From an uncultured Fidelibacterota bacterium (lineage in GTDB: Bacteria; Fidelibacterota; Marinisomatia; Marinisomatales; UBA1611), in NCBI GenBank assembly GCA_902559415.1, contig CACEHW010000008.1, positions 1 to 35,061 of the forward strand: DNA of 35,061 nt, given 5' to 3'. The translations under genes and the position numbers were made by a program. Each line of letters opens with the position of its first letter. The stretch's first letter is position 1. Below, piece by piece: positions 11,708 through 34,800 of the stretch. Below the pieces are notes generated by a model. That model did no database searches, had not been told where the DNA came from, and was given only the letters and a program-made list of their open reading frames with translations.

Positions 11708-11727
11708 GCTTTTAAAGTCTTAACAGA

Positions 11728-12138: not shown

Positions 12139-12144
12139 ATTCAA

Positions 12145-12148
12145 CTCC
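12145..12148 (-). promoter_or_regulatory. Shine-Dalgarno GGAG that decides the start at 12138
   Basis: On the minus strand the sequence reads ATGGAGTTGAATATG. The GGAG is correctly spaced (6 nt) for the second ATG and lies inside the first four codons if the first ATG were used. It sits only 7 nt after the stop codon of the upstream giant gene, which would suit translational coupling. Confidence 0.6.
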
Positions 12149-12154
12149 ATAGAA

Positions 12155-15100
12155 TTACTTTAATAAAATCATTTTCTTAGCTTGATAAAATGTGCCCGCT
12201 TGGATTGTATATATATACATCCCCGCAGAGACAGATGAACCATTATCATTTGTGGCATTCCATAATACATTTCTAAATCCAGCATCCTGTGTTTCATTTA
12301 CAAGAGTGCGAACTTTACTGCCCAACATATTATATATCGTAATGATCACTTTAGAATTTTCTGCTAGTGCGTACCTTATTTGCGTAGAAGGATTAAATGG
12401 ATTCGGATAATTTTGATTTAATGCAAATTCCTCAGGAATTATTTCTTGCTCTACAGATAATTCAACGCCAGCTACCTCAGACGGATCACTTTCGTTGCCA
12501 TTGTGATCTACCGCTGTGATCCAGTATTCAAAATTACCCCACTCAGAAACTACATCTACAAAAGATGACTCAATTGTCTGAAAAATAAATGCTGGCTCCT
12601 CACTATTAACATCAGCCCTGTAAACATTATGATATGCAAAATCTTCATCAACAGGAGCAGACCATGATAGATCAACCTGATACATTTCGCTATCAATAGC
12701 TTCGTTTGAAACAGCCAAATCTGTAGGAATCTCAGGAGATAAGTTATCCAATGAATACCCTGAATAAGGAGGTGAATCAAAAAACACATAAGGGTCATCA
12801 GTATGCGCGGTTACCATAAATGTACTGTAATGGACAGTATCTTGATTTGCATCTACCAGAGTCGGAACTACTTTATAATATAACTCTGAACCTTCACTAA
12901 AATTTTCTGTTGCAATGTAATGCCATAATTCTGGTGCACCAGTTGGCAAGTTTGAGATCTTTCTCCAAATAGAGTATTGCGTAAATGCTACTTGATCCTC
13001 AGCGTTTCCAGATAACCATGCCATATCAAGTTTTCTACCTTGGTCGTTTGGAACATCAGTTAAGGATGAAATTATTGGAGGCTCTACAAATCCTGGCTGA
13101 CTAAAATGAATATCATAAGTGGTGATATCATCCTCAATTGAGAAAGCATCAGGAATTGCGATACTCGCATAACCATTGGAAGTTGCAAATATTGAATACG
13201 TACCATTAAGTAGATTAATATAAAATGTGCCATTATCAGCTGTAACAGTTTCAGCAAAATAATTATCGTTAAATACGCTTATAGTAGCAGACCCAGATAA
13301 ATTACCAAAAAAGTAAACAGAGCCCATTACAGCCCCATCAAAAGACTCAATTGCATTTAGTGTGAAATTAACTTCTGAATCTCCACCTTCAATTGAAACA
13401 TCATTAACCCAAGACATTTGGTAGCCTGTTATAGATACTGATAAATTAAAATTACCATCAGGTACTGTAAGCTGATACGATCCATTATTGTCTGATAAAG
13501 TAGAGATTTCTGAATCACCTTCATCTGATATAAAATGAGCAGCAACAATTGCCCCTTCGATAGGAGTTTCTTCCTCATTCATTACTATTCCATAAAATGT
13601 ATTTGAATATTCTTCATCAAGATAAATTGTAGTATCTATAACTACTCCTGAATAAATGTAAACCTCTATAAATTTTTCTTGATGCCCCTCTGCATTTACT
13701 GATATAGTATATTGCGATTCCGGTAAAGACATAGAAAATGAACCACTCTCTGTTTGCGCATTATATACCTGGCCAGTATTAATACTAAAAGCATCAAAAG
13801 TTGCTTCAATCACATTTCCATCAATATTAGAGTATACTGTACCTGATAACATTCCAGGGTCAGGATCATTACCTTGTACAAGAGCAATATCTAGATCATA
13901 AGATGAACCAGCTTCAAACTCTATACTGCCTACAGATTGAACGCTAGTCTCATACCCATCAGCAGATACAATTAATACGCCATCATCACAATCATCAGGG
14001 TAATAGCTAAACACACGGTACGTTCCAATTTCACCAGTATGATCCCAGTCACTTGCCTGATCACAGTTCAACTGAACCTCTGCATATGGAATCAACTCAT
14101 CAGTATCAAAATCTCTTATCGTTCCATAAAGTCTAGAAGCAGCTAACATCTCAGCAATGCCAACGCTTAGTACTTGATGCTCTCCAGAACTAAGATAAAA
14201 AGCATCGTGCTCTACCCAGTATCCATCTGAGTAAACAAAAAGATCATAGTCCTCCTCACCGGGAACTTGGACCAAGAAATAACCATTCTCATCTGTAGTT
14301 GACTCAATGGTTACCATTTCCTCATCTGTGTAAGCAAGAAGGACTGAGGCATTTGCAAGGGGAACATTCGTGTACCAGTCCGTTACCGTACCCTCTACCA
14401 TTGCATCTTCGATAGAGTCATCAAGGTCTAGATAAATGTCTTGTGATAGGTCAACGTCTGCCATTGAAAGATACTGGATATTTTCCTGATAGTTGGACAT
14501 AGTAGTGCTTACATAGTAATTTAGATTACTAACAATATCTGCACTAAAATAACCGCTTTCATCACTAGTAACCTCCGTATTATAAATGTTATTTTCCTCA
14601 ACAATGATAACAGAAGCTCCAGCTAATGGAGAATCATCTTCTGAGCTTTTCACATATCCAGAAAGAATAATATCTGGAGTTAAAATAGGTGCCCCTAATG
14701 AGTTTTCATAAGCTCCGATATCAGGATTTGACCCGTTTGGCGCAGGTCTTGGGTTATTATTTAAATCATAATCAATAACTGCTGCAGGACCGATATTAAA
14801 AGATGTAGAGTACTTCACTCCACCTCTACGCAATATTTTATTCTGATCTGAGACTAATTCCCAATTGGTATTTTGAAAATCATTATCATTCACATTCTCA
14901 AACCATAGGACATACGTACCATTCTCTAAATTATTAACCTCATAATTAATCTCAGACTGCCAATCTTCTCCTCCAAATTCAGCGATAATATTATACGTGC
15001 TGTCTTCACCTATTTTTACAATTACATCTTGAGCAAAGCCATTATTCTCTTTATCTAATAACCTAAGTCTTACATTATTTGAAAGTCCACTGTTTAGATC

Positions 15101-18100
15101 TTCACCAAACCCTATACCTAAGGATTGGTCGGATAAATAATAGGTCATCTCAGAGAATAGAGGGTCACTATCTAAAATAGACTGACCTTCATACCCACCT
15201 CCAACAATTGAATTTGAGATTGTAATAGAATTATCGTTATCTACCATATCAACCGTTTGATCCCATAAAATAGAATTCGTCATGTAAATCGGAGCATCCC
15301 AACCGTTCGTTAGTCCAGCATTATCATTCTCAGAAGAATTGTTTGTTATTGTAGCATTGGAAATCGTAACAGTAGAGAAGTCCCATGATGAAACACCACC
15401 GCCTGAAATTGTTGCAAAATTATCAGTGATTAATGCATTTGTTACATTTACATGACAAAAATTATATGCCGTTAGACCAGGTCCATACGCACAAGTATTG
15501 TTACGAGAGATTAAATTTGAAACATCAATATTTGATCCATTATAGAAATAGATACCTGCCCCTAGCCACTGAGACATATTGTTCTGAACAAGAATATCTT
15601 TTGCAATACCATGACCAGCATTTATGTAGAAAATACCACCTCCATCTTCAGATTGATTATATTCTGAAGTGATGTTTTCTAGATGTGAGCCTGGCGCATG
15701 AATACTAATCCCACCGCCCCAACGAGCCTGATTATTTTTTACAATTAAATTTTTAGCTGTATAGTCAGAGCAAAGCACAAGCATCCCGCCACCATCATTA
15801 TTTGGCCAGTTTTCTGAATCTAATGGCTCAAAACCATTTTGAATTGTAAATCCATTTATCTCTCCACCATGAGATTCGTGATCTATGAATACTGGCTTCC
15901 CAGAACCACCAGCATCAATAATAGTTTGTTCTATGAATGAGGTATCTCCATTAGCAGCCAAAGAGTGCAGGAAAACATATTTGTTAATGTATATATTTTC
16001 GAAATAAGTCCCTGGTTGCACGAGGATGGTATCACCAGGAATAGCAAAATCAACTGCTTCTTGGATAGTTGAAAACTCTTCAGGAACATTAACTAATCCA
16101 GGGATAGGTGCTGGAGCTTCAATGGGAGCTCCACTTAACCAAGTAGCACCATTAATTATACCATCATTGCCATTATTTGTTATGTCTATTAAGGAATTTT
16201 CAGAACCTTCGTTAAAATTATATAGAGCTACTAATCCATCTTCAATACCACTTAAAGCTCTATTAGAAATTTCATATATTTCTTCCTCACTTAAGGCTTT
16301 ATTCCAAAAACCTAATTCATCTAATTGCCCATGAAAAAACTCATCAGCATTCTCGTGGTTAACTATTCCAATTTTTATATCACCATTGCCATCATAGGCT
16401 GTTAGATCTGTAGAAAACTCATCAGACATAACATCTAAATTGCCATCAATATAAACCTTGTAACGAGAACCATCATATACAACACTAATAAAATGCCACT
16501 GGTCATCTCTCAAATCAAAATTACCTGAAACCTCACTAGGATTCTCGCAACATATATTTAATCTAATTGCTCCATTATCAAAGTTCCCTCCAGCCCACAG
16601 AGTAAATCCAAACCCAGATCTTCCACCAATGATAGTAGAGTATTCGTTTCCTATATGATTTGATGGTATTTTGACCCAAGCAGTAAAAGTGATTTCATTA
16701 TTCGCAAATTCGAGATTATCACTTGATGATAAAACCACATAATCACTGTTGCCATTAAAGCTAAGAGAATAATTACTATATGGTTCATTACAACCAGGGT
16801 CTTGCGAGAAGCCTACATACGAGTTATCTTGTCCATTAAATAAACTTGAAGAGATACTCGATAGTTCATAGTTTCCTATTGCAGGATTACAGAACTCTGG
16901 ATTTTCATCAAAGTTACCTTCCCCATTATATCCACCTTCAACATTCGAGTAAGTAACATTATTCAATTCAGGCGAAGCAAAAACAGATTGCCCTGAATTA
17001 CCCCACAAGATACAATTTATTAGATTCGGATTAGAATTATAACTAGCTATTCCACCATATGATTGTGCACTATTATCAGCAATGGTAACATTTGAAAGTA
17101 CCACATTTGCATTTATATAAAAATTACATGCACCACCATAATATGCTGTATTTCTAGCGATCAATACATTCATTAGTTCGGGATTACTATTTTCTTCAAC
17201 AGCAATACCTCCACCATATCCATCTATGTCACTAGCTGCGTTTTCAATGATCGACACATTAGATATAACCGGACTTGAATTATCAGAAATATTTATTCCA
17301 CCACCACCCCACTCAGCTGTATTTGATTTAATAATTACATTAGTCACATTAGGACTTGAATTTATGTCGCAGTTTATTCCACCACCACCACCACCTATAT
17401 CATTAAGCGTGGCTTCATTATTTTCAATTAAAGAGGAAATTATAACTGGGCTTGAATTATTTTTACAAGATATACCACCGCCACCGCCTGCAGAATTATT
17501 TCTAATAATACAGTTTTCTATTGTTGGGCTAGACTCAAAGCATGCTACACCGCCACCAAAATCTGAATTACCATTTACAATGGAAAAACCTGATATAAAT
17601 GTGTTTAAGCTTTCACCACTATTAAAAGTAACAACACTCCCGTTTTGGCTACCATCGATGATTGTAGACTCTGGGCCATCAGTAGATATTACTCTGACAA
17701 TTTTACCATTGAAATTTAAATTCTCAAAATATGTTCCAGGAGCTACAAAAACTGAGTCGTTTTCATTGGCTATATTAATAGCATACTGAATTGAAGCAAA
17801 TGGGTAATCTTGAGAACCATTATTACTATCAGAACCGCTATCTGACACATACCACTCAGGTCCAGAATACGGTGGCATTGGAACATCATTGCTCCATGCA
17901 GCACCATAAATAATACCATGATTCCCATTCCCACTAAAATCAATTAATGATGTTCCTTCACCATCATTGAAATCCCAAAAAGACACCAAATCTTCATAGT
18001 GATTTGATCTACCATAAAACAGCTCTTCTATTTCATTATATGATAAAGCTCTACTCCAAATTCCAATGTTATCTAAATTGCCACTCCAGTATTGCCCACC

Positions 18101-21100
18101 AGAAAAACTCCCACCTCTACCAATAACTAAATCAGTTAATGTAGATTCTTGAGAAAGATTTGAAATATTTAAATCTTCAGTCTCTACATGTTCTCCATTG
18201 AAGTACCATTTAATATTATTGGTATTTATTGTAACAGCAACATGAGTCCATTGATTTAGAGATAGCGGGAAAGCATCTAATTGATAATGGGTTAAATTCC
18301 CACCTTCAGGAACAATCGCAATATTAAGATGATTATGTAAAGCATCAGATTCAGTGCCAACGACACCAAATGATAAACTAGTTGGGTAGTTTGATAAAAT
18401 ATATCTACCAAAATTTTCACTGTTATCATCAAGATAAATCCAAGATGAAACAGTTATTTCATTATTTTCAATTATTTGATCATTTTGAATTTCAGTTTGA
18501 ACAAAATCATCAACTCCATCAAAACTTAGCGACATGTTCGGCACATCACAGCTCTCACAACTATTAAAACAAAAAGGGCCTACAAACTGATTATTAGAGT
18601 TCGAAGTAGTAAAAGATCGATCAAAATATTCTCCATATCCACAATCACTAGAAATACCTTCCCATAGCCCTTGCCAATTACCATCTGTTAAACCAATTCT
18701 AAACTTGTACCAGTAGAAAGTATCTCTTTCAAGATCAACCGTTACCTCATAGATCATATCACCATCAGCATCAGTCATTTGGAATCCTGTCTGATCATCG
18801 TCTGAGTCTGCTAATCCACCTACATTACCTCCAGCGAGATATATGCCCTCTGATAGATCTCCTTCATAAACGTCTCCATTACTGAATTCCATCCCCTCAT
18901 AATACCTCATATCAACTTTGAATGTGACAGATGCAGAAGGTGTAACAAGACCATCATCCCAAACCGCACCATTGATATCTCCATGATTTGCATTCCCTGA
19001 ATGATCATATAGTATTTCACCATCCCCAGTATTGAATTTAAAATGAGCTACTGCATCACTAAATAATGTATCTTCATACATTATCCCTTTAATACCATCC
19101 TCATTTAACGCAACCGGCCAAATGCTCAGCTCATCAATAAAACCATCAAAATATTCATCATTGACTCCATTAAGATTAATAGTTGCTCCAATTGCAAATG
19201 GGTACTGGTTTGAGAAATTAGGACTCTCATTAATTTGAGCTTCTCCTATGATATCTCCATTTCGATATAACTTTAAATTATTATTTTCAACTGTAGCAGA
19301 TATGAATACCCACTGATTTTCATAATCTTCTGGATTGATATCTACATCTAATTCATAATAAGGTGACCCATCTACACCAAAAGAAAGAATACTCCCAAAA
19401 TCTTGAAACGATAGTAATATTCTTCCAAAATCTTGCTCTTGCCTGATTATCTCATAGTAGCGAGCTGAGGTGATATCATTTGGGAAGACCCAGGCGTTAA
19501 TTGTCATAGAACTTGATAGCTGATTAACCATATCACCTGATATACTTACATAGTCATCTTGTCCATCAAAAAATAAAGAATGATTTTGATTGTTTGGATA
19601 TCCCTCACAGCTACCATCATTCACGTTGGCATCAGGGTTATAATTTTGTGCAAAACTATCTGTACAACCATATAAAGGTGGCTCTAATGGGGCACTATCC
19701 CCTGACCATGATGCTCCCTCATTAATTCCATTGTTACCATTAGAACTTAAATCAGCAAGAGTTTGTCCTTGACCTTCATTAAAATTCCAATAACCAACTA
19801 AACCTTCTTCCAAACCAGAAAACTCAGAACTTAATTGATCTAAAATTTCAACGTCTGTCAATGGCCTATCCCAAATAGAGACATTATCTATTTTACCAGG
19901 GAAATATGAATTACCATTTGCTGATCCTATAGTTATATCAGCATTTTGGACAAAGGATATATCGTTAAAGTTAACATCCCCCTCACTATCTAATTCACCA
20001 TCAACATATATTTTAACTAAGCCACTCTCAAAAGTAGTTACAACATTAGTCCACTTATTTAATTCAATAGGAGTGTTACCTTTGACTTCTGAGAATGATG
20101 ACCCACCGCCAAAATTCACTGTATAATTATCAGCAGAAGGACTCCAAGTAAATAACCAACGATCGACTCCACCACCTGAACCTTCAGTTCTATTAAATAT
20201 TCTTGTATGAGCTCCATCACTGTATCTGTCTGGCTTGATCCAAGCTGATAAAGTCAAGCCACTATTTATTTGATCAATGGTTGCACTGGATGGAATTCTT
20301 ACATAATCACTAGCACCATTAAAGCTAAGAGAATTGTTCTCACCTGGTGTCGCTGGGAGATTCCAGATTGATCCATTAATATCTCCGTGACTTTGCCCGC
20401 CAGAGCGATCATATACTCTATCACCGCTTCCAGAGTTAAAGCTATATGAAGCAACAATCCCATCAAAGTTTAGCAGGCTATCAACTCCGAACGTAAAATA
20501 TTCTATTTCTGACTCAGATAAATACCTGTTCCAAATTACTACATTATCAATATGTCCATGAAAAAACTCATCTCCCCTGCTCATGGTATTTGACCCAATT
20601 CTCAAGGGGGAAGAAGTATCAATTGAAACAGTATATTCATTAGTTTCATCGACAATAAATCCATTAATATATAATTTCATAATACCATTTAGGTATGTTA
20701 GCGATAGGTCGGTCCATGTATTTTCAGATATTACATGATTTGTTATCCAGTCATTCCCTTCTAATGGAACGATAATAGTATTGTCGTTATTAATATAAAC
20801 TGATAACCTTTTCCCATTTACAGTTCCATCTCCTGCAGAGAAAAGATTTACTCCTTCAAAGTCTTGCGGATTATTATATTTTTTAAAAGATAGATTTATT
20901 GTGAAATTATTAGTCAAATCACCAGAGTTTGTAAAAATCGAATTATTATCTATTTCAACAAAATCATCAACTCCATCAAAAACTAGATTATAGTCTCCAT
21001 TATCAGGATATCCATTACAAGACCCATCATCAATGCTTGCATCTGGATCATAATTAAAAGCATATTGATCTGTACATCCGTATGCCTCAACTCTGGTATA

Positions 21101-24100
21101 AGAAAACCCTCCTCCATCTCTACAACATTGCCAGCTGTGAAACGTTATATTGTAAAATTTCTCTGTACTTTCGACATACATTGACATTGTTTGACCTGGC
21201 AGATCTCTCAAAGCTCCACCTGCGGCATCTTTAAGGTTTGTATAATTTGATAGATCATTATTTGAGTTGGTTGCTCCAAGATACCATTTTGTTCCACTAG
21301 GTGAGTTGTTCTCATTAAACCCAGACTCTGAATACTTATTGTATAAACCTCGCTCATTAGACCTAGTAAGCCACACATCATCTGTAATACGGTCTTGATT
21401 AAATGAAAGATTCGGGTTCGCATAATTATGCTTCCTAAAATAACCATCTGGAGTATCTGGTCCAGTAGCTGGAGTTCTCACATATGCAAAACCACCACCA
21501 TTTTGATCAAATGTGTAACTATGAAACTGAATATCATAATAAAGGTCTGTGCCAATAATATGCATAGAATAAGTTCTTCCAGGAATGTCACGCAGGTTCC
21601 ACTCTCCTCCAACTGTAACTAAAAATGGCTTGTAATTTTCAGTAGAAGAATGATCCTGAGTTGGACCACTAGCCCACTCTGTCCCCTCCGGAGAAGGCCC
21701 GCCATTATGCCCTGAATTATTATAACCACTTTCATATGCAATATTAAAAAGAGACTCATGGTTACTACTGCTATTACTCCTAGCAATCCATATATCATCC
21801 GTAATCCGATCTTGGTTCTCTGCTAAGTTCGGATCAGCAAAGTCAGGTTTTCTAAAATACCCCTCTGGCAATTCTGGACCTTCAACGAGTGTTCTTGTAT
21901 ATGAAAAACCACCACCATTTTGATTGCTTGTCCAGGAATGAAACTCTACATCAAAATAGTAATCCGTTCCAATAATATGCATGGAGTGAGTTTGCCCTGG
22001 CAAATTTTGAAGTCCATTACCTAAAGCTGACTTAAACCCTTTGTAATCCAACACAGAAGAATGGTTTGCTGTTGGCCCGCTTGCCCATTCTGTACCAGCA
22101 GGTGAAATACTATGGTCACGATTTTGCTCATTATAACTACCCTCAAGCGCAGCGTTATATAATGGTTTATTATTACCTCTGGTTATCCAGATATTATCAA
22201 GTATACGATCTTGATTTTCTGCTAGACCTGGATCAGCATTATCTTCTTTTGTAAATGTAACTGTCTCTTGAAAATATATACAACTACCATCATCAAACTC
22301 TACTGTCTCATCGTAGTTATCTGCGTAAATATCCATACAACCAGTTATTGGCGGTTTTTCTGAAGGAATTCTGACATAAGAAAATCCGCCACCGTTATTT
22401 CCTCCAGTCCAAGATGTAAAAATCACGTCAAAATAAATATCAAGAGTTTCTAAATGTAATGAAAAAGTGTCTCCAATAATTGAATTGAAATTTTCCCCAG
22501 ATGCAGAGTAAAGAGGTTCGTAATTGTAAACTGTTTGATTTGATGTTTTGCCTCTAACCCACTTAGTACCTAAAGGGGAGCTATCTTGATCATATTCAGA
22601 TTCAGATATAAAATTAAATAATCCGCCATTACCTGCTCTAGTAAGCCATACATTTTCACTAATCCTATCTTGGCTCTCAACCAGGCTTTGATCTCCAAAA
22701 TCTTCTTTTAAGAAAACTACTGTTTCTTCATAATAAACACAGCTACCATCATCAATGGATGCATTTTCGTCATAATTATCAGCGTAATAATTGGTGCACC
22801 CTGTACTAATATTTGCAGGTGTCCTAGTATATGAAAATCCACCTCCATTTTGCCCATCCCATTCATACTCACTATCATTCGTCCAAGAATGAAAAAGCAC
22901 ATCATAGAAATCATCAGTCCCTTCAACCCTCATTGACATTATTCTCCCAGGTATAAATCTCAACTCAGTTTGTAATGATGACATGAAATCGCTATATGAA
23001 TCGCTTGAAATCTGCGAATTAGTAGAGCCAAATGCCCATAATGTACTCACTGGAGAAACCCCACCAGTGTACCCGCTCTCAACAGCCGCATTGTATAATG
23101 ACTCAGAATCACCGCGAGTAATACGAATATTATCAGTAACCCAATCTTGATTATTATCAACAGCTGGATCTGCAAAATCATCCTTAATGAAGTAAACAGC
23201 ATCTAAGGAGTGACTGATCGTGTCTAATTCAGCTAAAGATCGAGTATATGCAAACCCACCACCATCGTAATTATTTGTCCATTGGTGAAATTCAATATCA
23301 TAAAAAATATCTGTCCCCGTAATGTGCATAGACATCATTTGACCGACTAAAGCTTGAAGGTTATCACCATGATTACTCTCACCAGTTGCTTCATGGAAAG
23401 ATGAATAGCTGTCTGTATTTCTTTGATAACCTGTTAAGCCCATAGACCAAACTGTTCCACTAGGTGAGTTGTTCTCATTAAACCCAGACTCTGAATACTT
23501 ATTGTATAAACCTCGCTCATTAGACCTAGTAAGCCACACATCATCTGTAATACGGTCTTGATTAAATGAAAGATTCGGGTTCGCATAATTATGCTTCCTA
23601 AAATAACCATCTGGAGTATCTGGTCCAGTAGCTGGAGTTCTCACATATGCAAAACCACCACCATTTTGATCAAATGTGTAACTATGAAACTGAATATCAT
23701 AATAAAGGTCTGTGCCAATAATATGCATAGAATAAGTTCTTCCAGGAATGTCACGCAGGTTCCACTCTCCTCCAACTGTAACTAAAAATGGCTTGTAATT
23801 TTCAGTAGAAGAATGATCCTGAGTTGGACCACTAGCCCACTCTGTCCCCTCCGGAGAAGGCCCGCCATTATGCCCTGAATTATTATAACCACTTTCATAT
23901 GCAATATTAAAAAGAGACTCATGGTTACTACTGCTATTACTCCTAGCAATCCATATATCATCCGTAATCCGATCTTGGTTCTCTGCTAAGTTCGGATCAG
24001 CAAAGTCAGGTTTTCTAAAATACCCCTCTGGCAATTCTGGACCTTCAACGAGTGTTCTTGTATATGAAAAACCACCACCATTTTGATTGCTTGTCCAGGA

Positions 24101-27100
24101 ATGAAACTCTACATCAAAATAGTAATCCGTTCCAATAATATGCATGGAGTGAGTTTGCCCTGGCAAATTTTGAAGTCCATTACCTAAAGCTGACTTAAAC
24201 CCTTTGTAATCCAACACAGAAGAATGGTTTGCTGTTGGCCCGCTTGCCCATTCTGTACCAGCAGGTGAAATACTATGGTCACGATTTTGCTCATTATAAC
24301 TACCCTCAAGCGCAGCGTTATATAATGGTTTATTATTACCTCTGGTTATCCAGATATTATCAAGTATACGATCTTGATTTTCTGCTAGACCTGGATCAGC
24401 ATTATCTTCTTTTGTAAATGTAACAGAAATATCTAGAGTATTATAAACATCTTCGCTCCAAGTCGCGCCATTAATGGAACCATGGTTCACATTACCAGAG
24501 TGATCAAAAATAATATCACCCTCCCCTGAACTTAATTTCCAATATCCTACAAGATTTTCATCATCTACTGGGAAAGAAGGATTTGTCAAATAATAATTTA
24601 TTTCATCATTATCTAATACAGTATTCCAAATTGAAATATCAAATATATTCCCTTTTAATGGCATGGTCTCGCTAGTCCAATCTCCAATAATAATATAGTT
24701 ATTCCAGCCAGTATTTAGAGTAGTGTTGTCCTGAGCGAGTAAGTTACCATCAATGTATAATTTTCTTGTGCCATTTTCATTGTATGTATAGACAACATTA
24801 TACCACCGGTCAATTTCAGGAGAAATATCTGTGAGTAAATCACTACTCCATCCAGATGCACAAAATTTTCCTTGATGTATAGTGATACCAAAAGATAGAA
24901 AGTCACCAGGAAGACCGTATGCGATTATACCTTGCTCACTTAGGTCGTTAACCTTGAATGTAGCAGTCATAGTTCGACTAGAATTTGAAAATGGTAAATT
25001 ATTATTTGTTGGGACCTTCACATTATTGTTCCCATTAAATTCTAGTGAATAATTACCATTATCTGGGTATCCAGAACAGCTGCCATCATTTGTATTAGCC
25101 TCAGGATTATAATTTTCAGCATATGGATCTATGCAACCAAGTACTGGTGCGTCTCCGGACCATGTAGCACCATAAATAGTTCCATCATTCCCATTTCCAC
25201 TTAGATCAGTGAGCGTATTTCCTTCACCTTCGCTAAAATTCCAGTAACCTACCAATCCTTCTTCATTACCATTTAGTTGAGTATCTATGTACTGTTCTAG
25301 CTCATTTTGAGTTCTTATAATATTCCAAATTCTTACTTCAGTTAAATTACCATTAAAGAGGCTACCACCTTCCATATTTTTCCCTAGCAAAAAATTTGCA
25401 GGTTGATAACTACCGCCATTACCGAAATTAAAAAGTAATGTGTTTTCCCCCTCAAACTGTCCGTCAATAAAAACTTGTCCTAGTGAGCTAGAGAAATCGT
25501 AAGTGAAACTCAAATGATACCAGGTGTCATTTTCTAACTCTTTTTCAGATATGGGCTCACCACCAATCCAGTGACTTAAACCAATCTTATTATCATTGTA
25601 TGGAGCATCAGCACCTGGTCTATACAATTGCGCCTCCATATTACCATGAAGTCTAGGGCCTGAAGAAATGATAGACGAAGATTGACCAGTTAATTTTTTT
25701 AACTTTAATTCTATAGTATATGAACTGCCAGCTATTAATTCTGAAGGTCCTAATTCGACATAATCATCTATTCCATCAAAACTAAGAGAATTATTCCCGC
25801 CTGGGACAGGTGGGGTTGGTGGCACATAGACATCTTCGCTCCAGGTCGCACCACTTATAGTTCCATGATTAGAATTCCCAGTTCGGTCATACAATAAGCT
25901 TCCATCTCCGCTATTGAAACTCCAATAAGCAGCTAAATCTTCTTCATTTATTGTAGCTTCTGGGTTATCGTAAAGATTATAAATATCATTATCTGAAAGA
26001 ACAGCACTCCATATAGAAACACCATCAATTAGACCATCCCAGAATCTTTCGTTATTTGAAAGAACAGAGTGGACACCAATTCTAAGATCTGCTATAGGCC
26101 CAGCAGGAGCACCACAATTAGAAGTATTAGTCAATTCTCCATTGATATAAATCCTGCTTGTTGACCCATCATTTGTTGCCGCAACAAAATACCATGTATC
26201 AGTTGATAATGTAGGTGAAACAACCTCACACCAGTTGTTCCCATCACCAGTCCAAAAACTCAAACTGTTTAAAGTGCTGGTTTTTTCAATCCCGTATCCT
26301 TTACGTGATTCATCATTAGCCTTACTAACTACACCTTGTAGCACGTTATCAAAATCATCAATTCTTACCCAAGCTGCTAAAGTAATGTCCCCGTTAATCT
26401 CAGTGCTAGGGCTAGTGCCTAGATTAACGTGATCACCTGAGCCGTTGAAGTCAAGAGAATGGTTCCCATTATTAGGATATCCTGAACAGCTACCATCATC
26501 AGAAGTTGCTTCAGAGTTATAGTTGTCAGCATAAGTATCGGTACAGCCAAATACTGGAGGCTCTGGAAACTCATGAACATCATTATCCCAAGATGCACCG
26601 TTAATATCTCCATGATTTAGACTGCCTGAATGATCGTACAAAATACTTCCATCACCAGAATTAAATGTCCAGTAAGAGATTAACTTATCATATTCATCAT
26701 TAAAATAACCGCTATGACGCTGAGTTATCTCTTGCTGATTTAGAACTGAATTAAATATACCTATATTGTCAACATTGCCTGCAAAATTAAGTGGTTGACT
26801 AGGATATCCTCTTTTCCCAACAAGCCAATCTCCATTATCAGAATTTATAAGAACTGTTGAGGCAATATCAGAACCTAAAAGCTCACCATTAATGTATAGC
26901 TTTCTTTGTCTGGTGTCAGCATCAAATGTACCACAAACATAATACCAATCTCCTGGTATGATATTTACTGCAACATCAAGATCATCATAAACAAACGCAA
27001 AGCCGACAGTAGAATTATTTCTTATTAAAAACCCAACTGATTCACCAACATTATGCTCATTCCACTTTGTAAAAATTATTTGTTCATCGTTTGTATCATC

Positions 27101-28000
27101 TGCTTTAAACCAAAAATCTACAGAAAAAGATTTTCCATCTAAATCTATTTTCTCATCACTCCCTAAGTTGACATGAGACCCATTTCCATCAAAGCTAAGA
27201 GAATACTCACCATTATCTGGGTAACCAAAACAGCTACCATCATCAGATGTTGCTTCAGAGTTATAGTTGTCAGCATAAGTATCGGTACAACCAAATACTG
27301 GAGGAGTAGGCACATCATCACTCCAGGTAGCACCATTAATTGAACCATTATTACCATTACCGCTTAGATCAGTTAAGGTAGATCCTCCGCCATCATTAAA
27401 ATTCCAATGTGCAATTAGATTACCAGATAAACTATAATCTGATTCACTGTATATGGACAGATCATCAATGATACCTTGAAATGATCTACCATCCATAGCT
27501 GAAAAGTCACCAATTACAAGATTTTCATCATTAGTTAAACTTGTTATAGAGAAATTAGTATTTGTACCAATTGTTGCATCAACACCAAAATCATTAACTA
27601 ATTGATCATCGAGGTAAAGTCGAAAATGGTCTTGGTTCTTGAAAGTTGTGATAATTGTATGAAATTGATCATCATTTTCAATGGGAGTCGTTAAAGTAAT
27701 AGCACCACCCCCAGGGTTTACTTCAACGTAGAGTAAGCCATTAGCAACCCTTATCTCATATCCAGGACCTGCAGAATAAAATCTCTTTGACAATATATAT
27801 CCCTGATCTCCAATTTCAGAAAATTTCACCGATGCAAAAATTGTAAATTCTTCAGAAATCTGATCTAAACTTTGATTGTCTCCGATAAGCACGTAATCAT
27901 CCACACCATCAAAGCTAAGAGAATGATTAGTCTGGGCAATAATAGATGTACTAATGCCAAAGATAAAAATAAAAAAATATTTAAGTAATGATCTTTTCAT
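12155..28000 (-). CDS. Giant T9SS-secreted multidomain LamG/beta-helix surface protein (5281 aa)
   Basis: Start chosen at ATG 28000, where a signal peptide begins (MKRSLLKYFFIFIFGISTS, to about 23); an in-frame TTG at 28072 would add 24 residues that spoil it. Approximate order: five LamG modules 24-1190; NQDRITDN modules 1-5 at 1193-1876; modules 6-8 at 1914-2305; three LamG 2333-3015; starch-binding-like module 3023-3150 with GIYLAGG; LamG 3153-3370; beta-helix 3378-3735; LamG 3740-3955; second beta-helix 3967-4430; carboxypeptidase-regulatory-like modules 4440-4970; Fn3-like region 4973-5187; T9SS sorting domain 5188-5281 (QNYPNPFNPSTQI, ending KKMILLK). Seven Cys-x18-Cys linkers. LamG modules usually bind glycans or proteins, so a surface adhesin is the likeliest role; no catalytic motif was seen. 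Residues 1193-1516 and 1914-2237 are encoded by a perfect 972-bp repeat. It is the first gene of the apparent operon. Confidence 0.93.
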   Translation of the reverse strand: MKRSLLKYFFIFIFGISTSIIAQTNHSLSFDGVDDYVLIGDNQSLDQISEEFTIFASVKFSEIGDQGYILSKRFYSAGPGYEIRVANGLLYVEVNPGGGAITLTTPIENDDQFHTIITTFKNQDHFRLYLDDQLVNDFGVDATIGTNTNFSITSLTNDENLVIGDFSAMDGRSFQGIIDDLSIYSESDYSLSGNLIAHWNFNDGGGSTLTDLSGNGNNGSINGATWSDDVPTPPVFGCTDTYADNYNSEATSDDGSCFGYPDNGEYSLSFDGNGSHVNLGSDEKIDLDGKSFSVDFWFKADDTNDEQIIFTKWNEHNVGESVGFLIRNNSTVGFAFVYDDLDVAVNIIPGDWYYVCGTFDADTRQRKLYINGELLGSDIASTVLINSDNGDWLVGKRGYPSQPLNFAGNVDNIGIFNSVLNQQEITQRHSGYFNDEYDKLISYWTFNSGDGSILYDHSGSLNHGDINGASWDNDVHEFPEPPVFGCTDTYADNYNSEATSDDGSCSGYPNNGNHSLDFNGSGDHVNLGTSPSTEINGDITLAAWVRIDDFDNVLQGVVSKANDESRKGYGIEKTSTLNSLSFWTGDGNNWCEVVSPTLSTDTWYFVAATNDGSTSRIYINGELTNTSNCGAPAGPIADLRIGVHSVLSNNERFWDGLIDGVSIWSAVLSDNDIYNLYDNPEATINEEDLAAYWSFNSGDGSLLYDRTGNSNHGTISGATWSEDVYVPPTPPVPGGNNSLSFDGIDDYVELGPSELIAGSSYTIELKLKKLTGQSSSIISSGPRLHGNMEAQLYRPGADAPYNDNKIGLSHWIGGEPISEKELENDTWYHLSFTYDFSSSLGQVFIDGQFEGENTLLFNFGNGGSYQPANFLLGKNMEGGSLFNGNLTEVRIWNIIRTQNELEQYIDTQLNGNEEGLVGYWNFSEGEGNTLTDLSGNGNDGTIYGATWSGDAPVLGCIDPYAENYNPEANTNDGSCSGYPDNGNYSLEFNGNNNVKVPTNNNLPFSNSSRTMTATFKVNDLSEQGIIAYGLPGDFLSFGITIHQGKFCASGWSSDLLTDISPEIDRWYNVVYTYNENGTRKLYIDGNLLAQDNTTLNTGWNNYIIIGDWTSETMPLKGNIFDISIWNTVLDNDEINYYLTNPSFPVDDENLVGYWKLSSGEGDIIFDHSGNVNHGSINGATWSEDVYNTLDISVTFTKEDNADPGLAENQDRILDNIWITRGNNKPLYNAALEGSYNEQNRDHSISPAGTEWASGPTANHSSVLDYKGFKSALGNGLQNLPGQTHSMHIIGTDYYFDVEFHSWTSNQNGGGFSYTRTLVEGPELPEGYFRKPDFADPNLAENQDRITDDIWIARSNSSSNHESLFNIAYESGYNNSGHNGGPSPEGTEWASGPTQDHSSTENYKPFLVTVGGEWNLRDIPGRTYSMHIIGTDLYYDIQFHSYTFDQNGGGFAYVRTPATGPDTPDGYFRKHNYANPNLSFNQDRITDDVWLTRSNERGLYNKYSESGFNENNSPSGTVWSMGLTGYQRNTDSYSSFHEATGESNHGDNLQALVGQMMSMHITGTDIFYDIEFHQWTNNYDGGGFAYTRSLAELDTISHSLDAVYFIKDDFADPAVDNNQDWVTDNIRITRGDSESLYNAAVESGYTGGVSPVSTLWAFGSTNSQISSDSYSDFMSSLQTELRFIPGRIMSMRVEGTDDFYDVLFHSWTNDSEYEWDGQNGGGFSYTRTPANISTGCTNYYADNYDENASIDDGSCVYYEETVVFLKEDFGDQSLVESQDRISENVWLTRAGNGGLFNFISESEYDQDSSPLGTKWVRGKTSNQTVYNYEPLYSASGENFNSIIGDTFSLHLETLDIYFDVIFTSWTGGNNGGGFSYVRIPSEKPPITGCMDIYADNYDETVEFDDGSCIYFQETVTFTKEDNADPGLAENQDRILDNIWITRGNNKPLYNAALEGSYNEQNRDHSISPAGTEWASGPTANHSSVLDYKGFKSALGNGLQNLPGQTHSMHIIGTDYYFDVEFHSWTSNQNGGGFSYTRTLVEGPELPEGYFRKPDFADPNLAENQDRITDDIWIARSNSSSNHESLFNIAYESGYNNSGHNGGPSPEGTEWASGPTQDHSSTENYKPFLVTVGGEWNLRDIPGRTYSMHIIGTDLYYDIQFHSYTFDQNGGGFAYVRTPATGPDTPDGYFRKHNYANPNLSFNQDRITDDVWLTRSNERGLYNKYSESGFNENNSPSGTKWYLGATNSNNDLSNYTNLKDAAGGALRDLPGQTMSMYVESTEKFYNITFHSWQCCRDGGGFSYTRVEAYGCTDQYAFNYDPDASIDDGSCNGYPDNGDYNLVFDGVDDFVEIDNNSIFTNSGDLTNNFTINLSFKKYNNPQDFEGVNLFSAGDGTVNGKRLSVYINNDNTIIVPLEGNDWITNHVISENTWTDLSLTYLNGIMKLYINGFIVDETNEYTVSIDTSSPLRIGSNTMSRGDEFFHGHIDNVVIWNRYLSESEIEYFTFGVDSLLNFDGIVASYSFNSGSGDRVYDRSGGQSHGDINGSIWNLPATPGENNSLSFNGASDYVRIPSSATIDQINSGLTLSAWIKPDRYSDGAHTRIFNRTEGSGGGVDRWLFTWSPSADNYTVNFGGGSSFSEVKGNTPIELNKWTNVVTTFESGLVKIYVDGELDSEGDVNFNDISFVQNADITIGSANGNSYFPGKIDNVSIWDRPLTDVEILDQLSSEFSGLEEGLVGYWNFNEGQGQTLADLSSNGNNGINEGASWSGDSAPLEPPLYGCTDSFAQNYNPDANVNDGSCEGYPNNQNHSLFFDGQDDYVSISGDMVNQLSSSMTINAWVFPNDITSARYYEIIRQEQDFGRILLSFQDFGSILSFGVDGSPYYELDVDINPEDYENQWVFISATVENNNLKLYRNGDIIGEAQINESPNFSNQYPFAIGATINLNGVNDEYFDGFIDELSIWPVALNEDGIKGIMYEDTLFSDAVAHFKFNTGDGEILYDHSGNANHGDINGAVWDDGLVTPSASVTFKVDMRYYEGMEFSNGDVYEGDLSEGIYLAGGNVGGLADSDDDQTGFQMTDADGDMIYEVTVDLERDTFYWYKFRIGLTDGNWQGLWEGISSDCGYGEYFDRSFTTSNSNNQFVGPFCFNSCESCDVPNMSLSFDGVDDFVQTEIQNDQIIENNEITVSSWIYLDDNSENFGRYILSNYPTSLSFGVVGTESDALHNHLNIAIVPEGGNLTHYQLDAFPLSLNQWTHVAVTINTNNIKWYFNGEHVETEDLNISNLSQESTLTDLVIGRGGSFSGGQYWSGNLDNIGIWSRALSYNEIEELFYGRSNHYEDLVSFWDFNDGEGTSLIDFSGNGNHGIIYGAAWSNDVPMPPYSGPEWYVSDSGSDSNNGSQDYPFASIQYAINIANENDSVFVAPGTYFENLNFNGKIVRVISTDGPESTIIDGSQNGSVVTFNSGESLNTFISGFSIVNGNSDFGGGVACFESSPTIENCIIRNNSAGGGGGISCKNNSSPVIISSLIENNEATLNDIGGGGGGINCDINSSPNVTNVIIKSNTAEWGGGGINISDNSSPVISNVSIIENAASDIDGYGGGIAVEENSNPELMNVLIARNTAYYGGACNFYINANVVLSNVTIADNSAQSYGGIASYNSNPNLINCILWGNSGQSVFASPELNNVTYSNVEGGYNGEGNFDENPEFCNPAIGNYELSSISSSLFNGQDNSYVGFSQDPGCNEPYSNYSLSFNGNSDYVVLSSSDNLEFANNEITFTAWVKIPSNHIGNEYSTIIGGRSGFGFTLWAGGNFDNGAIRLNICCENPSEVSGNFDLRDDQWHFISVVYDGSRYKVYIDGNLDVMSDEFSTDLTAYDGNGDIKIGIVNHENADEFFHGQLDELGFWNKALSEEEIYEISNRALSGIEDGLVALYNFNEGSENSLIDITNNGNDGIINGATWLSGAPIEAPAPIPGLVNVPEEFSTIQEAVDFAIPGDTILVQPGTYFENIYINKYVFLHSLAANGDTSFIEQTIIDAGGSGKPVFIDHESHGGEINGFTIQNGFEPLDSENWPNNDGGGMLVLCSDYTAKNLIVKNNQARWGGGISIHAPGSHLENITSEYNQSEDGGGIFYINAGHGIAKDILVQNNMSQWLGAGIYFYNGSNIDVSNLISRNNTCAYGPGLTAYNFCHVNVTNALITDNFATISGGGVSSWDFSTVTISNATITNNSSENDNAGLTNGWDAPIYMTNSILWDQTVDMVDNDNSITISNSIVGGGYEGQSILDSDPLFSEMTYYLSDQSLGIGFGEDLNSGLSNNVRLRLLDKENNGFAQDVIVKIGEDSTYNIIAEFGGEDWQSEINYEVNNLENGTYVLWFENVNDNDFQNTNWELVSDQNKILRRGGVKYSTSFNIGPAAVIDYDLNNNPRPAPNGSNPDIGAYENSLGAPILTPDIILSGYVKSSEDDSPLAGASVIIVEENNIYNTEVTSDESGYFSADIVSNLNYYVSTTMSNYQENIQYLSMADVDLSQDIYLDLDDSIEDAMVEGTVTDWYTNVPLANASVLLAYTDEEMVTIESTTDENGYFLVQVPGEEDYDLFVYSDGYWVEHDAFYLSSGEHQVLSVGIAEMLAASRLYGTIRDFDTDELIPYAEVQLNCDQASDWDHTGEIGTYRVFSYYPDDCDDGVLIVSADGYETSVQSVGSIEFEAGSSYDLDIALVQGNDPDPGMLSGTVYSNIDGNVIEATFDAFSINTGQVYNAQTESGSFSMSLPESQYTISVNAEGHQEKFIEVYIYSGVVIDTTIYLDEEYSNTFYGIVMNEEETPIEGAIVAAHFISDEGDSEISTLSDNNGSYQLTVPDGNFNLSVSITGYQMSWVNDVSIEGGDSEVNFTLNAIESFDGAVMGSVYFFGNLSGSATISVFNDNYFAETVTADNGTFYINLLNGTYSIFATSNGYASIAIPDAFSIEDDITTYDIHFSQPGFVEPPIISSLTDVPNDQGRKLDMAWLSGNAEDQVAFTQYSIWRKISNLPTGAPELWHYIATENFSEGSELYYKVVPTLVDANQDTVHYSTFMVTAHTDDPYVFFDSPPYSGYSLDNLSPEIPTDLAVSNEAIDSEMYQVDLSWSAPVDEDFAYHNVYRADVNSEEPAFIFQTIESSFVDVVSEWGNFEYWITAVDHNGNESDPSEVAGVELSVEQEIIPEEFALNQNYPNPFNPSTQIRYALAENSKVIITIYNMLGSKVRTLVNETQDAGFRNVLWNATNDNGSSVSAGMYIYTIQAGTFYQAKKMILLK
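13839..14410 (-). repeat. 572-bp block identical to 2850-3421 (copy in the 5281-aa gene)
   Basis: Partner of the block in the 3504-aa gene. It encodes residues 4531-4721. Flanking sequence on both sides has diverged so far that only protein-level similarity remains, so the identity is confined to this island. Confidence 0.93.
21290..22261 (-). repeat. 972-bp perfect direct repeat, copy B (C-terminal copy)
   Basis: Compared line by line with 23453-24424 (offset 2163 bp) with no mismatch found. It encodes residues 1914-2237 of the 5281-aa protein: two complete NQDRITDN modules and the first half of a third. One boundary (22261) falls exactly on the V-T-F-T-K-E-D module start; the other (21290) falls inside a module just after S-P-S-G-T. 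Confidence 0.95.
23453..24424 (-). repeat. 972-bp perfect direct repeat, copy A (N-terminal copy)
   Basis: Partner of 21290-22261, encoding residues 1193-1516. The two copies are separated by 1191 bp holding the rest of module 3, modules 4 and 5 and two Cys linkers. The 2163-bp period equals 721 codons, so gain or loss of one period keeps the frame. Confidence 0.95.
26487..26560 (-). repeat. 74-bp linker repeat, copy 1 (near-identical to 27231-27304)
   Basis: It differs from 27231-27304 at two positions that I can see (offset 744 bp, 248 codons). It encodes the FGCTDTYADNY linker between LamG modules, so a LamG-plus-linker unit was probably duplicated here, after which the LamG parts diverged. 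Confidence 0.8.
27231..27304 (-). repeat. 74-bp linker repeat, copy 2
   Basis: Partner of 26487-26560, encoding the same FGCTDTYADNY Cys linker after the first LamG module. Confidence 0.8.
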
Positions 28001-28058
28001 ATTTAATGTTATATGGAAGGTAATAATCGCCTTACCATACAAAAATTTTCTTATACAC

Positions 28059-28084
28059 ATTATATATAACAAAATTTATGCCAA
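28059..28084 (-). promoter_or_regulatory. Candidate promoter of the 5281-aa gene and its operon
   Basis: On the minus strand a perfect TATAAT (28064-28059) lies about 58 nt upstream of the ATG at 28000. A TTGGCA (28084-28079) precedes it, but the 14-nt spacer is short, so only the -10 element is persuasive. If real, transcription starts near 28052, which would exclude the upstream TTG start at 28072. AT-rich DNA makes chance matches common. Confidence 0.3.
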
Positions 28085-28864: not shown

Positions 28865-31800
28865 TTACTTCATCAAGACCATCTTACGATTCTGAATGAA
28901 ATCTCCCGCCTGAATCGAGTAGATATACATACCCGCACTGACAGGTCTTCCGATTTCATTAGTCGCATTCCACATTACAGTTCTATATCCAGCGCTTTGG
29001 ACCTCATTCACCAAGGTGCGAACTTTACGACCTGTTATATCATAGATAGATATCACAACTCGCGTTTCACTTGGAAGAGCGTATTGTATCTGCGTAGATG
29101 GATTAAATGGGTTTGGATAGTTTTGCTTCAGCGCAAATTCCGTAGGCATACCCACCTCATCTTCAGATGAAAGTACCGCAGAAACAATGCCTGAAGATTC
29201 AGACTCTAATCCAGAAAGATCTACAGCTGTAATCCAATACTCATATGCCCCAATGTCTTCCATTGCCTGATCTACATAAAAAGAATCAGTCGTTGTAAAT
29301 ACCATTGCTGGTTCATTGGTCAGGATATCCTGCCTATAGACATTGAAGTAGCTAAAGTCTTCATCAACCGGACCGGACCAACTCAAGGACACTGAACCTG
29401 GGCCTGTTGAGAATGACAAGCTCATTGGAGCCCCTGGATGTAGGTTATCGATAGAATAACCACTCATTGGCTCTGAATCAAGCCAGAAAGACACCTCATC
29501 TGTATGCGCAGTAACCATAAAGGTGCTCATGTGTATACCGTGCGCTGAAGAATCACCAAGGGTTGGTACTACCGCAGCATAAGGATCCATTCCATGCCAA
29601 GGAACTGTCTCGATGTAATCCCACAGATCAATTGGTGAGTTAACCACTTTCCTCCAAATGGAGTACTGAGTGAAATAACCCCAATCGCCAGGCATACCAG
29701 CGTCCCATACTGTACGCATCTGCCTACCTTGATCATTTGGAACATCGTGCAGATTTACTATGTGTGGAGGACCTGCATACCCATATTCAAAAAGTTCTAC
29801 ATCAAAATTGACTGTATTACCTGCAATCTCAAACGCTTCTGACATATAAAAAGAAGTATAACCATCTGCATCTACATATATATCATAAACACCATCCACT
29901 AGATCAACAGAGTAAAAGCCATTTTCATCTGCGTTAACATGAGCGTCGTAAACATCACTATAGACGTTTACATGTGACCACATAGGCATATATTCCCCAA
30001 CAAATGAGATAACCCCCTGAACTGAACCAGTCATAACAGAAGGAGTCAGAGTGAAGTCTATTGTTACATCAGCATTCAGATCTACACCATAGACCCGCTC
30101 ATTAAGAAACCCTTCAGAATAAACAGCCATATTATAAAGCCCGCTTGGAACGACCATTGAATAATAACCTTCATAATCAGTAAAGGTGTGTTCCACCCAA
30201 CCTTCATAATAATTATCATCATAGCTATTGATTTCTACATGTGCATCATAGACAGGGTTACCCATATCATCATAGACATATCCTGATATTGTGAAGTACT
30301 CTTCTACAGGATAATACTCTACATTATAATAAAATACCGAGCCGGTATAAACCTCATCCTCAGCGTAAAAACCGTAATTCGTAAGCCCAGGAATCGGATC
30401 CTGTACAGAAATATAGTAACTTACTCCTTCATTACTTGCAGGTACATCAATTCCAAAATAACCACCTTCATCTGTATATAATGTAAACAGATCATCACTG
30501 TTATATATTGTAACCTCTACACCCGATAGATAAGTAGTATCACCATACATATTATTGGAGTAATCTACCGTAAAAGTATGCCCCTCTATTCGTGCTGTTT
30601 CCGATGGACCCTCAATATTATAATTATATACATAAGCATCAAGCTCATCATCAAAAACAGTGGCATTCAGCATGAAAGTCTCAGAACTATATTGGCCATT
30701 AAATAAAGACCAAACACTTAGCTCTACACCATTCAAAGCCCAGAATCGATAATAACCATTTTGATCTACTTGCCCTCTATTCCAAATATTAAGACCATCG
30801 CTTAAAATCATTTGGCCCCAAACAAAAGTACCAGTAGCAGGATTACCCATATCATCAACAGCATATCCCTGAACTATTGTATTAAGCTCAATTACCGATA
30901 TATCTGATACGAAAGTAAGATCATCACCTACATAAAATTCAGTAAGTATGTCATAGCCTCCACCTTCCCACTCTGCTCTTTGAATCAGAGGAACTAATCT
31001 TCCTTGGTAGCTAATATCCTCTGGTTCACTGCTTACAAGTAATCGAACAGAATCTCCAGCAGCTATATCCATCGAACCTATATCATAGGTACCATCTGCT
31101 CTTGTAACACCAAGTGCAGCATCAACAAAGTAGTGGAATCCATAATCGTCTGTCATTATCTCTGACATTTGAACAAACATACCATGAACAGGCTCATTTT
31201 CTTCCCCGCTTAATGTTGCAGTACCAGAAAAACGAATAGTAGAAGAATTAAATGGACTTACCTGTACTTCTTCATGGACTGTACCATCGGTGTTCATTGC
31301 CGCAAAAATAAATGTAGCACCCTGAGTATCCAAAAATTCTAGATCATGGATATGCGCTGCGTATTTCCCGGTCTCATCATTTAGATCATCAGGCCCGTTA
31401 TCAAAGATCAACATCACTGACCCAGGTCCATCAGCATTAAACTCATCATTGAGTACGTTTATGTCATTTTCATCTAAAACGCCATTGAAGTTTGAATCCC
31501 AGAAAACTCCGACCGAACCTATATACTGATCTATATCATCTGTAGAAGTCTCAAACTCAGCGGTGAGTACTAAACCAGGTCCATCAATATTATATTCATT
31601 TGAAAGAGGAGTACCGCCAGTTTCATAAGATTCAATATCATATATATCGATACTAGTAAAATTCGTGAAATCAAGCTGTTCAGGACCTTCAACTGAGACC
31701 CTAGAATAACCAAATCCACCACCGTTAGATTGCCCAGGTGTCCATGATGTAAATGTAACATCAAAATAGAGATCTTCTTCTATCAAATGCAGAGATAAAG

Positions 31801-34800
31801 TATTACCAACAATATTGGTAAAACCACCAAGGTGATCTAAAACGACATCTCGCAGGTGGCTGTATGCACCGCCATTTGAATGGTGCATGTCTGTTGAACC
31901 AAAAGCCCAACGAGTGCCAGCAGGTGAAGGATCTGAATGCATGCTCTCAACAGCAGCATTATAAAGCCATCCTGCCCCACCTCTAGTCAGCCAAACGTTA
32001 TCCGTTATTCTGTCTTGATTCTCAGGAAGAGATGGATCAGCAAAATTTTCTTTTGTAAAAGAGACTTCCTCTCCATCATCTTCAAATGCACAAGGGACAT
32101 CATAAACATCAACCAGTAAACATCCGTCTAAGTTTGGATCATAGTCCTCATACATGTCAGGAGCACAATACTCTGGCTTCCACAAACGGTTTGCATAATT
32201 TTCATAGTCTGTTATCTCAATACATGACAAGTCCTCATTTTCATTATCTAGAAAATTTTCTTGTACTCCATTAACGACCCACAGATATTCCATTTGATCT
32301 GAAGGTGTAGGATCTAAAGCGACATGAAAGAAACCTCCAAGACCAAAGAATTCAGCATCCTCAGGGTTCCAAAACTCAACCCACTGAGCTACAGGGCCTC
32401 CTTGAGGATCCCAGTTCCACCATGGGCCTGTCATACGAACTGACATATCTGAAAAATCATATTCAGATGTATCTACAAGTAAAACAGCATGCAACTGATC
32501 TTCACAATCGAAAATATCACAGAAGTCTTGTGGCGGACATTCTCCCCAAGATTCATCATCAACATAAATATACCAGTAGTCCATGTATTCGTCATCGCCA
32601 GGATAATATTCTGCATTTTCATAAGAGACTTCAGCAACCCTGTTGTAGCCTCCTTGACCATTATCTACACCACACTCAGCTGGCACATCTTCTTGTGCAG
32701 ACCATCCTTCACATACATATTTATACTCATATGTTCCAGGAGGTAGATCAATACTACCATAGTAATATCCGTCATTGTCATCATCAATAAGCTCCACTCC
32801 AGCTCCACTCCAACCATCAAATGTCCCGGTAACAAAAATACTACCTTCACAAGGAGCTGCACCTTGCGGAATATCAAACTCAATCGAGATAAAATTATCC
32901 TCAATTAAGTTGCAGGTACCTTCTCCACAAAGACCAAAGCAATGATTTATCGAGCGATCAACAATAGTTGTACTGAATGCTCTATCATTATACTGACCAA
33001 ATGCACATTCCTGACCTTGGATATTTTCTTTGTTATCCCAGCCTGTACCATTTACATAGGTATAGGCATCATTTAAGTCTGCTGGAAAACTATCTGCTAA
33101 GAACCATGTGTTCGTCGAACCATCAACTTGCGTAAATGGATAACGACCTTCCCAAGGACCGCCAAAATAATTTCCGCCAGCTAAAAATAACCCAGCGTCT
33201 GATACAACCTCATCACCCATATCAAGAGTAATCATGACGTAGACACTATCACTATAGGTATAGTCACAATCCCCAAATCGATGATCAGCTGTACCATCAC
33301 CATCAACAGTTATTCTTCTATCAGAATAAGGCTCTACAGCACAAGATTGACCTACAATATTTTCTTTTACATCCCAGCTCATTCCATTTGTGAATGTATA
33401 GTCATACGTACCACCATCAATGAGGTCAACCTCAATCTCATAGACACCATCATGATTAAAATCAATCATACGGTAGTTGTCTTCCCACGGGCCACCAAAT
33501 GGTCCGCCAGCTAGGTGGACACCATCAGGAGATATCTCTTCAACCCCAGTCATATCAACTCTGAATTTTACGGTTGCTGTATCTGGAGCACCTATAGTTT
33601 CGCAGGTCCCCTCTCCACATAGACCAAAACAGTGATATACCTGTCTATCGACTATAGTTGTCCTAAATTCTCTATCACTATATTGACCAAAGGCACAATC
33701 TTGACCTTGGATATTTTCTTTATTCCCCCAACCAGTACCATTGACATATGTATAGGCATCGTTTAAAACGGCAGGAAAACTATCTGCTAGGTACCATGTG
33801 TTCGTCGAACCATCAACTTGCGTAAATGGATAACGACCTTCCCAAGGGCCACCAAAATAATTTCCACCAGCTAAAAATAGACCGGCATCTGAAATAACCT
33901 CATCACCCATATCAACTGTGAACTCAACGTAAACGCTGTCACTGTAAGTGGCATCACAATCTTGGAACTTAGCAATGACATTTGTGTTCTCAGTCACAGT
34001 CATACTTCTGTCGTTATAATTGGAAGGATTAGCACATGACTGACCTTCAATATTTTCCTTGTTACCCCAGCCATGGCCATTGGTATAGGTGTAGAATATG
34101 CTTGAGCCAGTAGTAATTTCAAACGTGCCTTCATATACACCATCACCATTATGGTCTGATAATCTACCTGATTGATTGCCATCATTTGGTTCACCCCAAA
34201 TAGCACCAGCAACATAAACACCCTGATCCGATACAGTTTGGTCATTCATATCTAAGTAGAATGTAACGTTTGAGACCGGTGGTACGTAATCGCATGAATA
34301 GCAAGAGCCATAACAAACTAAAGGAAGTTCAATATCTTGATCTCCAATAGTAGCGATTCTATCGTTATACTCGCCCACGCCACATGGCTCTAGAGCATTT
34401 GCATCCTCAAAACCGTCCCATGTACCGAACGATGGCTGATTTCTAAATTTATAATTAACATCCTGATTTATTGCTAGTTCGACTGTTACTTTCCATATAT
34501 CATCGCCATCAGAGTCATCCATCAATAAACCATCTTGTCCAAATTGCCCACCAGCCAGGTAAACTCCATCAGGGTGAGTATCAACTTCATTCATGTCTAC
34601 GCTGAAAGTGACATCAACAAAAGGGTCAAAGCCATCTCTAACAAATTTAAATGTCCAGTAGTTACCACCGACCTCTATGGATAAGGTCATAAGGTTACCA
34701 TCAAAAGATAAAATATCATAAGTCCTTGAATCTGGTACAGCATCAGTCACACCAGAAAGTTCTCCACCATTATATGCCTTAGCCAAAGCAAAATAGGCAC

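Follow-up and report, generated by a model that had tools for sequence, protein, structure and literature searches.

Exact in-frame repeats within and between giant surface-protein genes of an uncultured Fidelibacterota bacterium point to recent block copying

Results and discussion

A locus of giant genes in a variable slot

The window analysed here is a stretch of 35,061 nucleotides from an uncultured Fidelibacterota bacterium (GenBank assembly GCA_902559415.1) and comprises the entire contig C8 of a draft genome, of Ca. Neomarinimicrobiota type, that has 83 contigs and is 65% complete, of which about 772 kb was read. Along the minus strand the gene order is F (a giant), the sodN-like gene E, D (a giant), C, B (a giant) and A. 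Gene D (12155..28072, minus strand) encodes a giant surface-type protein with LamG domains, a module array, CarboxypepD_reg domains and a T9SS tail; its open reading frame spans 5305 residues from a TTG and 5281 residues when counted from the ATG at 28000, the length that had been given in an earlier, sequence-only reading of this DNA. The T9SS sorting domain at the C-terminus was recognized by Por_Secre_tail and TIGR04183 above the curated cut-offs, and SprA (PF14349) was found above cut-off in six of the seven same-genus genomes, whereas the present genome, at 65% completeness, yielded no match. The LamG domains, the T9SS-type tail and the occurrence of SprA in the genus support the designation as a surface protein made in that reading. 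Gene B (1193..11707, minus strand) is a paralogous giant of 3504 residues that contains three modules and has the same C-terminal layout as gene D, and gene F (28865..35059, minus strand) is a further giant with one module, cut by the contig end.

The sodN-like gene E (28276-28773, minus strand), which lies between two giant genes, carries the motif HCQVPCGIYGD and resembles nickel superoxide dismutase, with a score against TIGR02753 that is below the cut-off. Its identity to the counterparts in same-genus genomes is 84-86% in three cases and 60% in a fourth. The sodN-to-A slot was compared among relatives (loci L050, L051, L053 and L054 against window positions 1-28800). In the same-genus genome G004 the genes F, sodN and A follow each other in order and the slot is empty, in G005 sodN is followed by another, different giant (about 2690 residues), and the contigs of G001 and G002 end inside sodN. 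Because the slot content differs between G004 and G005, the D-C-B island is to be seen as the filling of a variable slot, and the slot is an island that is hard to assemble.

A 972-bp exact repeat in the module array of gene D

Module parsing and a profile search delimited an array of eight modules of about 120 residues, M1-M8, in gene D (21089..24424, minus strand). The perfect in-frame direct repeat of 972 bp that the sequence-only reading had reported within this array was recovered on alignment: positions 21290-22261 and 23453-24424 are identical at 972 of 972 bases, the match cannot be extended by even one base at either end, and outside it the identity at the same offset drops to about 20-50% per 100 bases. 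The N-terminal copy (23453..24424, minus strand) holds M1, M2 and the first half of M3, and the C-terminal copy (21290..22261, minus strand) holds M6, M7 and the first half of M8; the block is wholly coding and thus comprises two and a half modules, M6-M7-M8a being identical to M1-M2-M3a. The copies are separated by a spacer of 1191 bp or 397 codons (22262..23452, minus strand), which contains the rest of M3 together with M4, M5 and linkers and is diverged throughout. Both the spacer and the repeat period are in frame, the latter being 2163 bp or 721 codons as counted before.

None of the 315 degenerate codons differs between the two copies. The strong divergence of the neighbouring modules, also noted earlier, could be quantified: outside the block, paired modules have 36-61% of their residues in common, about half of the codons for these shared residues differ silently, and adjacent modules in the array are at most 57% identical. 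The identity of the two copies is far beyond chance.

The block itself has a narrow distribution. It was absent from the same-genus genomes, had no DNA-level relative beyond short fragments in 60 related genomes and had no copy among the phages or viral contigs searched; a search of genome contigs returned only two loci, at 32-34% protein identity, in Ca. Neomarinimicrobiota NAT38 and MED-G176. We also considered a mobile element or phage cassette and rejected it (no tRNA, no phage match, a block that is entirely coding).

An unnamed module

The module can be recognized by the pattern F.K.D.ADP..ENQDRIT..VWITRG ... FHSWT..NGGGFSYTR (for instance at 24053-24424 and 4529-4885). By profile search it is present in 37 of the 245 genomes of the phylum, mostly in one or a few copies, and one other genome of the phylum gave 15 module matches, mostly in a single diverged array. 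A single frame of 2139 residues at positions 8700-14300 of locus L146 (genome G230, contig C175) holds an array of some 14 members of this module family, diverged and without long exact repeats.

The module array had no Pfam or NCBIfam match above cut-off, a profile search of the PDB with the module gave matches only at E >= 0.08, and a structure search with a confident AlphaFold2 model of the module (pLDDT 92.7, pTM 0.86) had its best hits at E 0.37 in the PDB and 0.48 among viral models. Judged from this model, the module appears to be a domain family without a match in the PDB or among viral models, the structure libraries compared, and it is worth defining as such.

A second exact tract shared by genes B and D

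A self-search for exact repeats revealed a second long repeat, absent from the sequence-only reading: 572 bp that are common to gene B (2850..3421, minus strand) and gene D (13839..14410, minus strand) and that sit within 598 bp at 99.5% identity. At the protein level B and D are 33% identical in the N-terminal flank, 100% in the tract and 46% in the C-terminal flank, and none of 183 codons in the tract differs silently between them.

The same-genus genome G002 could serve as an outgroup, as it has a B-like C-terminus adjoining the same lipoprotein-like gene A. Over the N-terminal flank, the tract and the C-terminal flank the outgroup is 72, 78 and 76% identical to B, versus 26, 78 and 47% to D. 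G002 resembles B over all three segments but D in the tract only, which makes the tract in D a B-type patch between D-type flanks. The tract fits ectopic gene conversion, and the outgroup shows the direction to be from B, the donor, into D, the recipient. Between B and its orthologue in G002, 68 of 143 codons in the tract and 193 of 401 in the C-terminal flank differ silently, whereas over the 972-bp and 572-bp pairs together none of 498 degenerate codons differs (95% upper bound about 0.6%), so that both copying events are far younger than the split from G002. The B/D tract is the stronger evidence for block copying of the two.

Edges and probable direction of copying of the 972-bp block

The 3' edge of the 972-bp block lies inside homologous module halves (NNSPSGT/VW and NNSPSGT/KW, with the slash at the edge), and the 3' flanks of the two copies are homologous module halves that are 42% identical. 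The 5' edge coincides exactly with a module start, beyond which there are two different linkers and the homology between the sites ends. This is the pattern expected of a conversion tract that extends as far as the homology does. Gene B again offers a comparison: the 5' linker of the C-terminal copy (GSCIYFQET/VTFTKED) resembles the linker before module B1 (GTCEYSQEP/VTFTKED), and the 3' flank of the N-terminal copy (M3b, LDAVYF.K.DFADP, M4) parallels B1b-linker-B2.

On the most economical reading, the N-terminal site once had a B1-like module and would have received the block from the C-terminal site, thereby gaining modules. Exact identity and the comparison of flanks suggest the C-terminal copy as the source and the N-terminal copy as the recipient, and the pair was probably made by a single conversion event; as no outgroup carries the block, we derive both the direction and the number of events from the likeness of flanks in modules that are only 40-60% alike.

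Other repeats in the genome and in its relatives

In the roughly 772 kb that were read, only the 972-bp and 572-bp exact repeats exceed 124 bp. Imperfect repeats with a period divisible by 3 were found elsewhere in gene D (108 bp, 89%), in gene F (360 bp, 83%) and in large open reading frames on contigs C12 (132 bp, 99%) and C38 (619 bp, 92%). These imperfect in-frame repeats, which are of graded age, are evidence of recurrent segmental copying and are not an effect of graph collapse. Exact repeats in those module loci of relatives that were examined, 80 kb of a single-contig assembly among them, did not exceed 127 bp, which may reflect a limit of assembly or a real absence of longer ones.

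The repeat of 619 bp on contig C38 (locus L091) is direct (4911-5529 versus 6075-6693) and has a period of 388 codons in a frame of 1742 residues. In addition, contig C10 (locus L062) has several repeats of 128-253 bp at 80-96% between 5600 and 16400, some with periods out of frame, in a region without a large open reading frame.

Origin of the exact repeats

The 972-bp pair probably represents very recent copying within a modular giant surface protein, for which ectopic recombination or conversion is the most likely route, a like process having put 572 bp of B into D. In such a scenario, out-of-register homologous recombination or gene conversion would have copied 2.5 modules from the C-terminal to the N-terminal part of the array, and a similar process would have copied the 572 bp from the neighbouring paralogue. 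The very recent duplication or gene conversion proposed in the sequence-only reading is well supported in this respect and gains strength from the outgroup-polarised second tract and the repeats of graded age.

The explanation that competes best is that the repeats are a product of assembly, the cell containing one copy or two differing copies, with a loop in the graph having been walked or similar copies having been merged, and with strain mixture as a possible addition. A direct repeat gives a simple loop in the graph through which an assembler can pass, and copies that are nearly identical can be merged in the process. Each of the two long repeats is of this simple, direct kind and lies on a single contig; both are longer than any likely k-mer, and they are part of a fragmented draft (83 contigs, 65% complete) in which other exact repeats reach at most 124 bp, and at most 127 bp in the loci of relatives, as if longer ones normally break contigs. 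A short-read assembler guessing at longer repeats would fit this ceiling of 124 bp; no contig-end overlap that might betray the assembler was common to the stretches read. Nevertheless, each of the four junctions between block and flank should have been read, the outgroup backs the B-type sequence inside D for the 572-bp tract, and the imperfect in-frame repeats of graded age are independent of graph collapse. We consider an assembly product unlikely. Because the junctions should have been read, the presence of the block in both contexts is firmer than the copy number, unless the DNA was chimeric. The exactness and the copy number of the long repeats are provisional, as loops can be walked and near-identical copies can be merged, and they may partly reflect choices of the assembler; real, recent block copying in the giant genes is likely.

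Less probable still is a two-step course in which unequal crossing over duplicated the whole 2163-bp period in tandem and a deletion between homologous module halves then took out the second spacer. The in-frame period and the position of the 3' edge in homologous module halves, where a deletion could occur, are in line with such a course, but two events are then required, each so recent that no silent difference has arisen, and the second tract, between two genes, shows that conversion occurs at the locus. An old duplication kept identical by selection on protein or RNA, for which we found no support, is effectively refuted by the 0 of 315 degenerate codons differing, against about half differing silently in other modules of the same protein, and by the absence of the block from same-genus relatives.

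Predicted consequences and relation to known systems

Recombination between the two 972-bp copies would remove or add 721 residues in frame, and a gain or loss of 721 residues in one step, as put forward in the sequence-only reading, is arithmetically possible. Likewise, a deletion of 10,989 bp through the 572-bp tract is predicted to yield an in-frame fusion of D and B. Both predictions are based on this arithmetic and on the general behaviour of direct repeats, which can recombine with each other.

The process is known from other bacteria, in its working the locus resembles other repeat-bearing surface proteins that recombine, and the present case is a new example in an under-studied lineage. 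Cassette systems draw on dedicated repeat donors that lie apart from the gene being expressed, whereas the donors here are located inside long open reading frames and we found no silent-cassette array. With the variation of the MgPa adhesin of Mycoplasma genitalium (PMC2169797) the locus shares the copying of segments between homologous surface-protein sequences.

The stalks of Periscope Proteins (Whelan et al. 2021, PMC8201768) are built of domains in tandem, with neighbours that are highly similar to each other. These proteins share with gene D the array of surface modules, the highly identical DNA repeats that should permit intragenic length change and the need for long reads in counting. 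In gene D, however, adjacent modules are not alike (at most 57% identical, as given above), which places it outside the Periscope definition; its block of 2.5 modules matches only the block 397 codons away, and the gene is from an uncultured marine lineage and known here from one genome. The Giant1-5 proteins of Apilactobacillus kunkeei (Pedersen et al. 2026, PMC12863079) are similar in having consecutive giant surface-protein genes, repeat segments and much intragenic recombination, but that study reports no sign that giants within a genome had recently undergone conversion with each other, whereas here conversion between the paralogous giants B and D is seen. In the PE/PPE genes of Mycobacterium tuberculosis, ectopic conversion between paralogues brings in several variants at once and is poorly seen by short reads (Stritt et al. 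2025, PMC12046097). That family is unrelated, and conversion was shown there between outbreak isolates with long reads, while here it is deduced from a single draft genome compared with an outgroup.

A bolder interpretation, which we put forward only tentatively, is that the sodN-to-A slot is a hypervariable island of T9SS giants in Ca. Neomarinimicrobiota, with ongoing in-frame conversion of module blocks, identical modules that are non-adjacent and a protein of 5281 residues, built in part from a domain that lacks a known fold relative, whose length and mosaic differ between cells of a single population. Giant surface-protein genes in such lineages are often broken by assembly, and the locus provides a specific example, open to test, of recent block copying both inside and among the giant surface proteins of a marine lineage that is uncultured. 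If cells were to carry one, two or three periods, this would be a mechanism of length and mosaic variation in a marine bacterium rather than in a pathogen.
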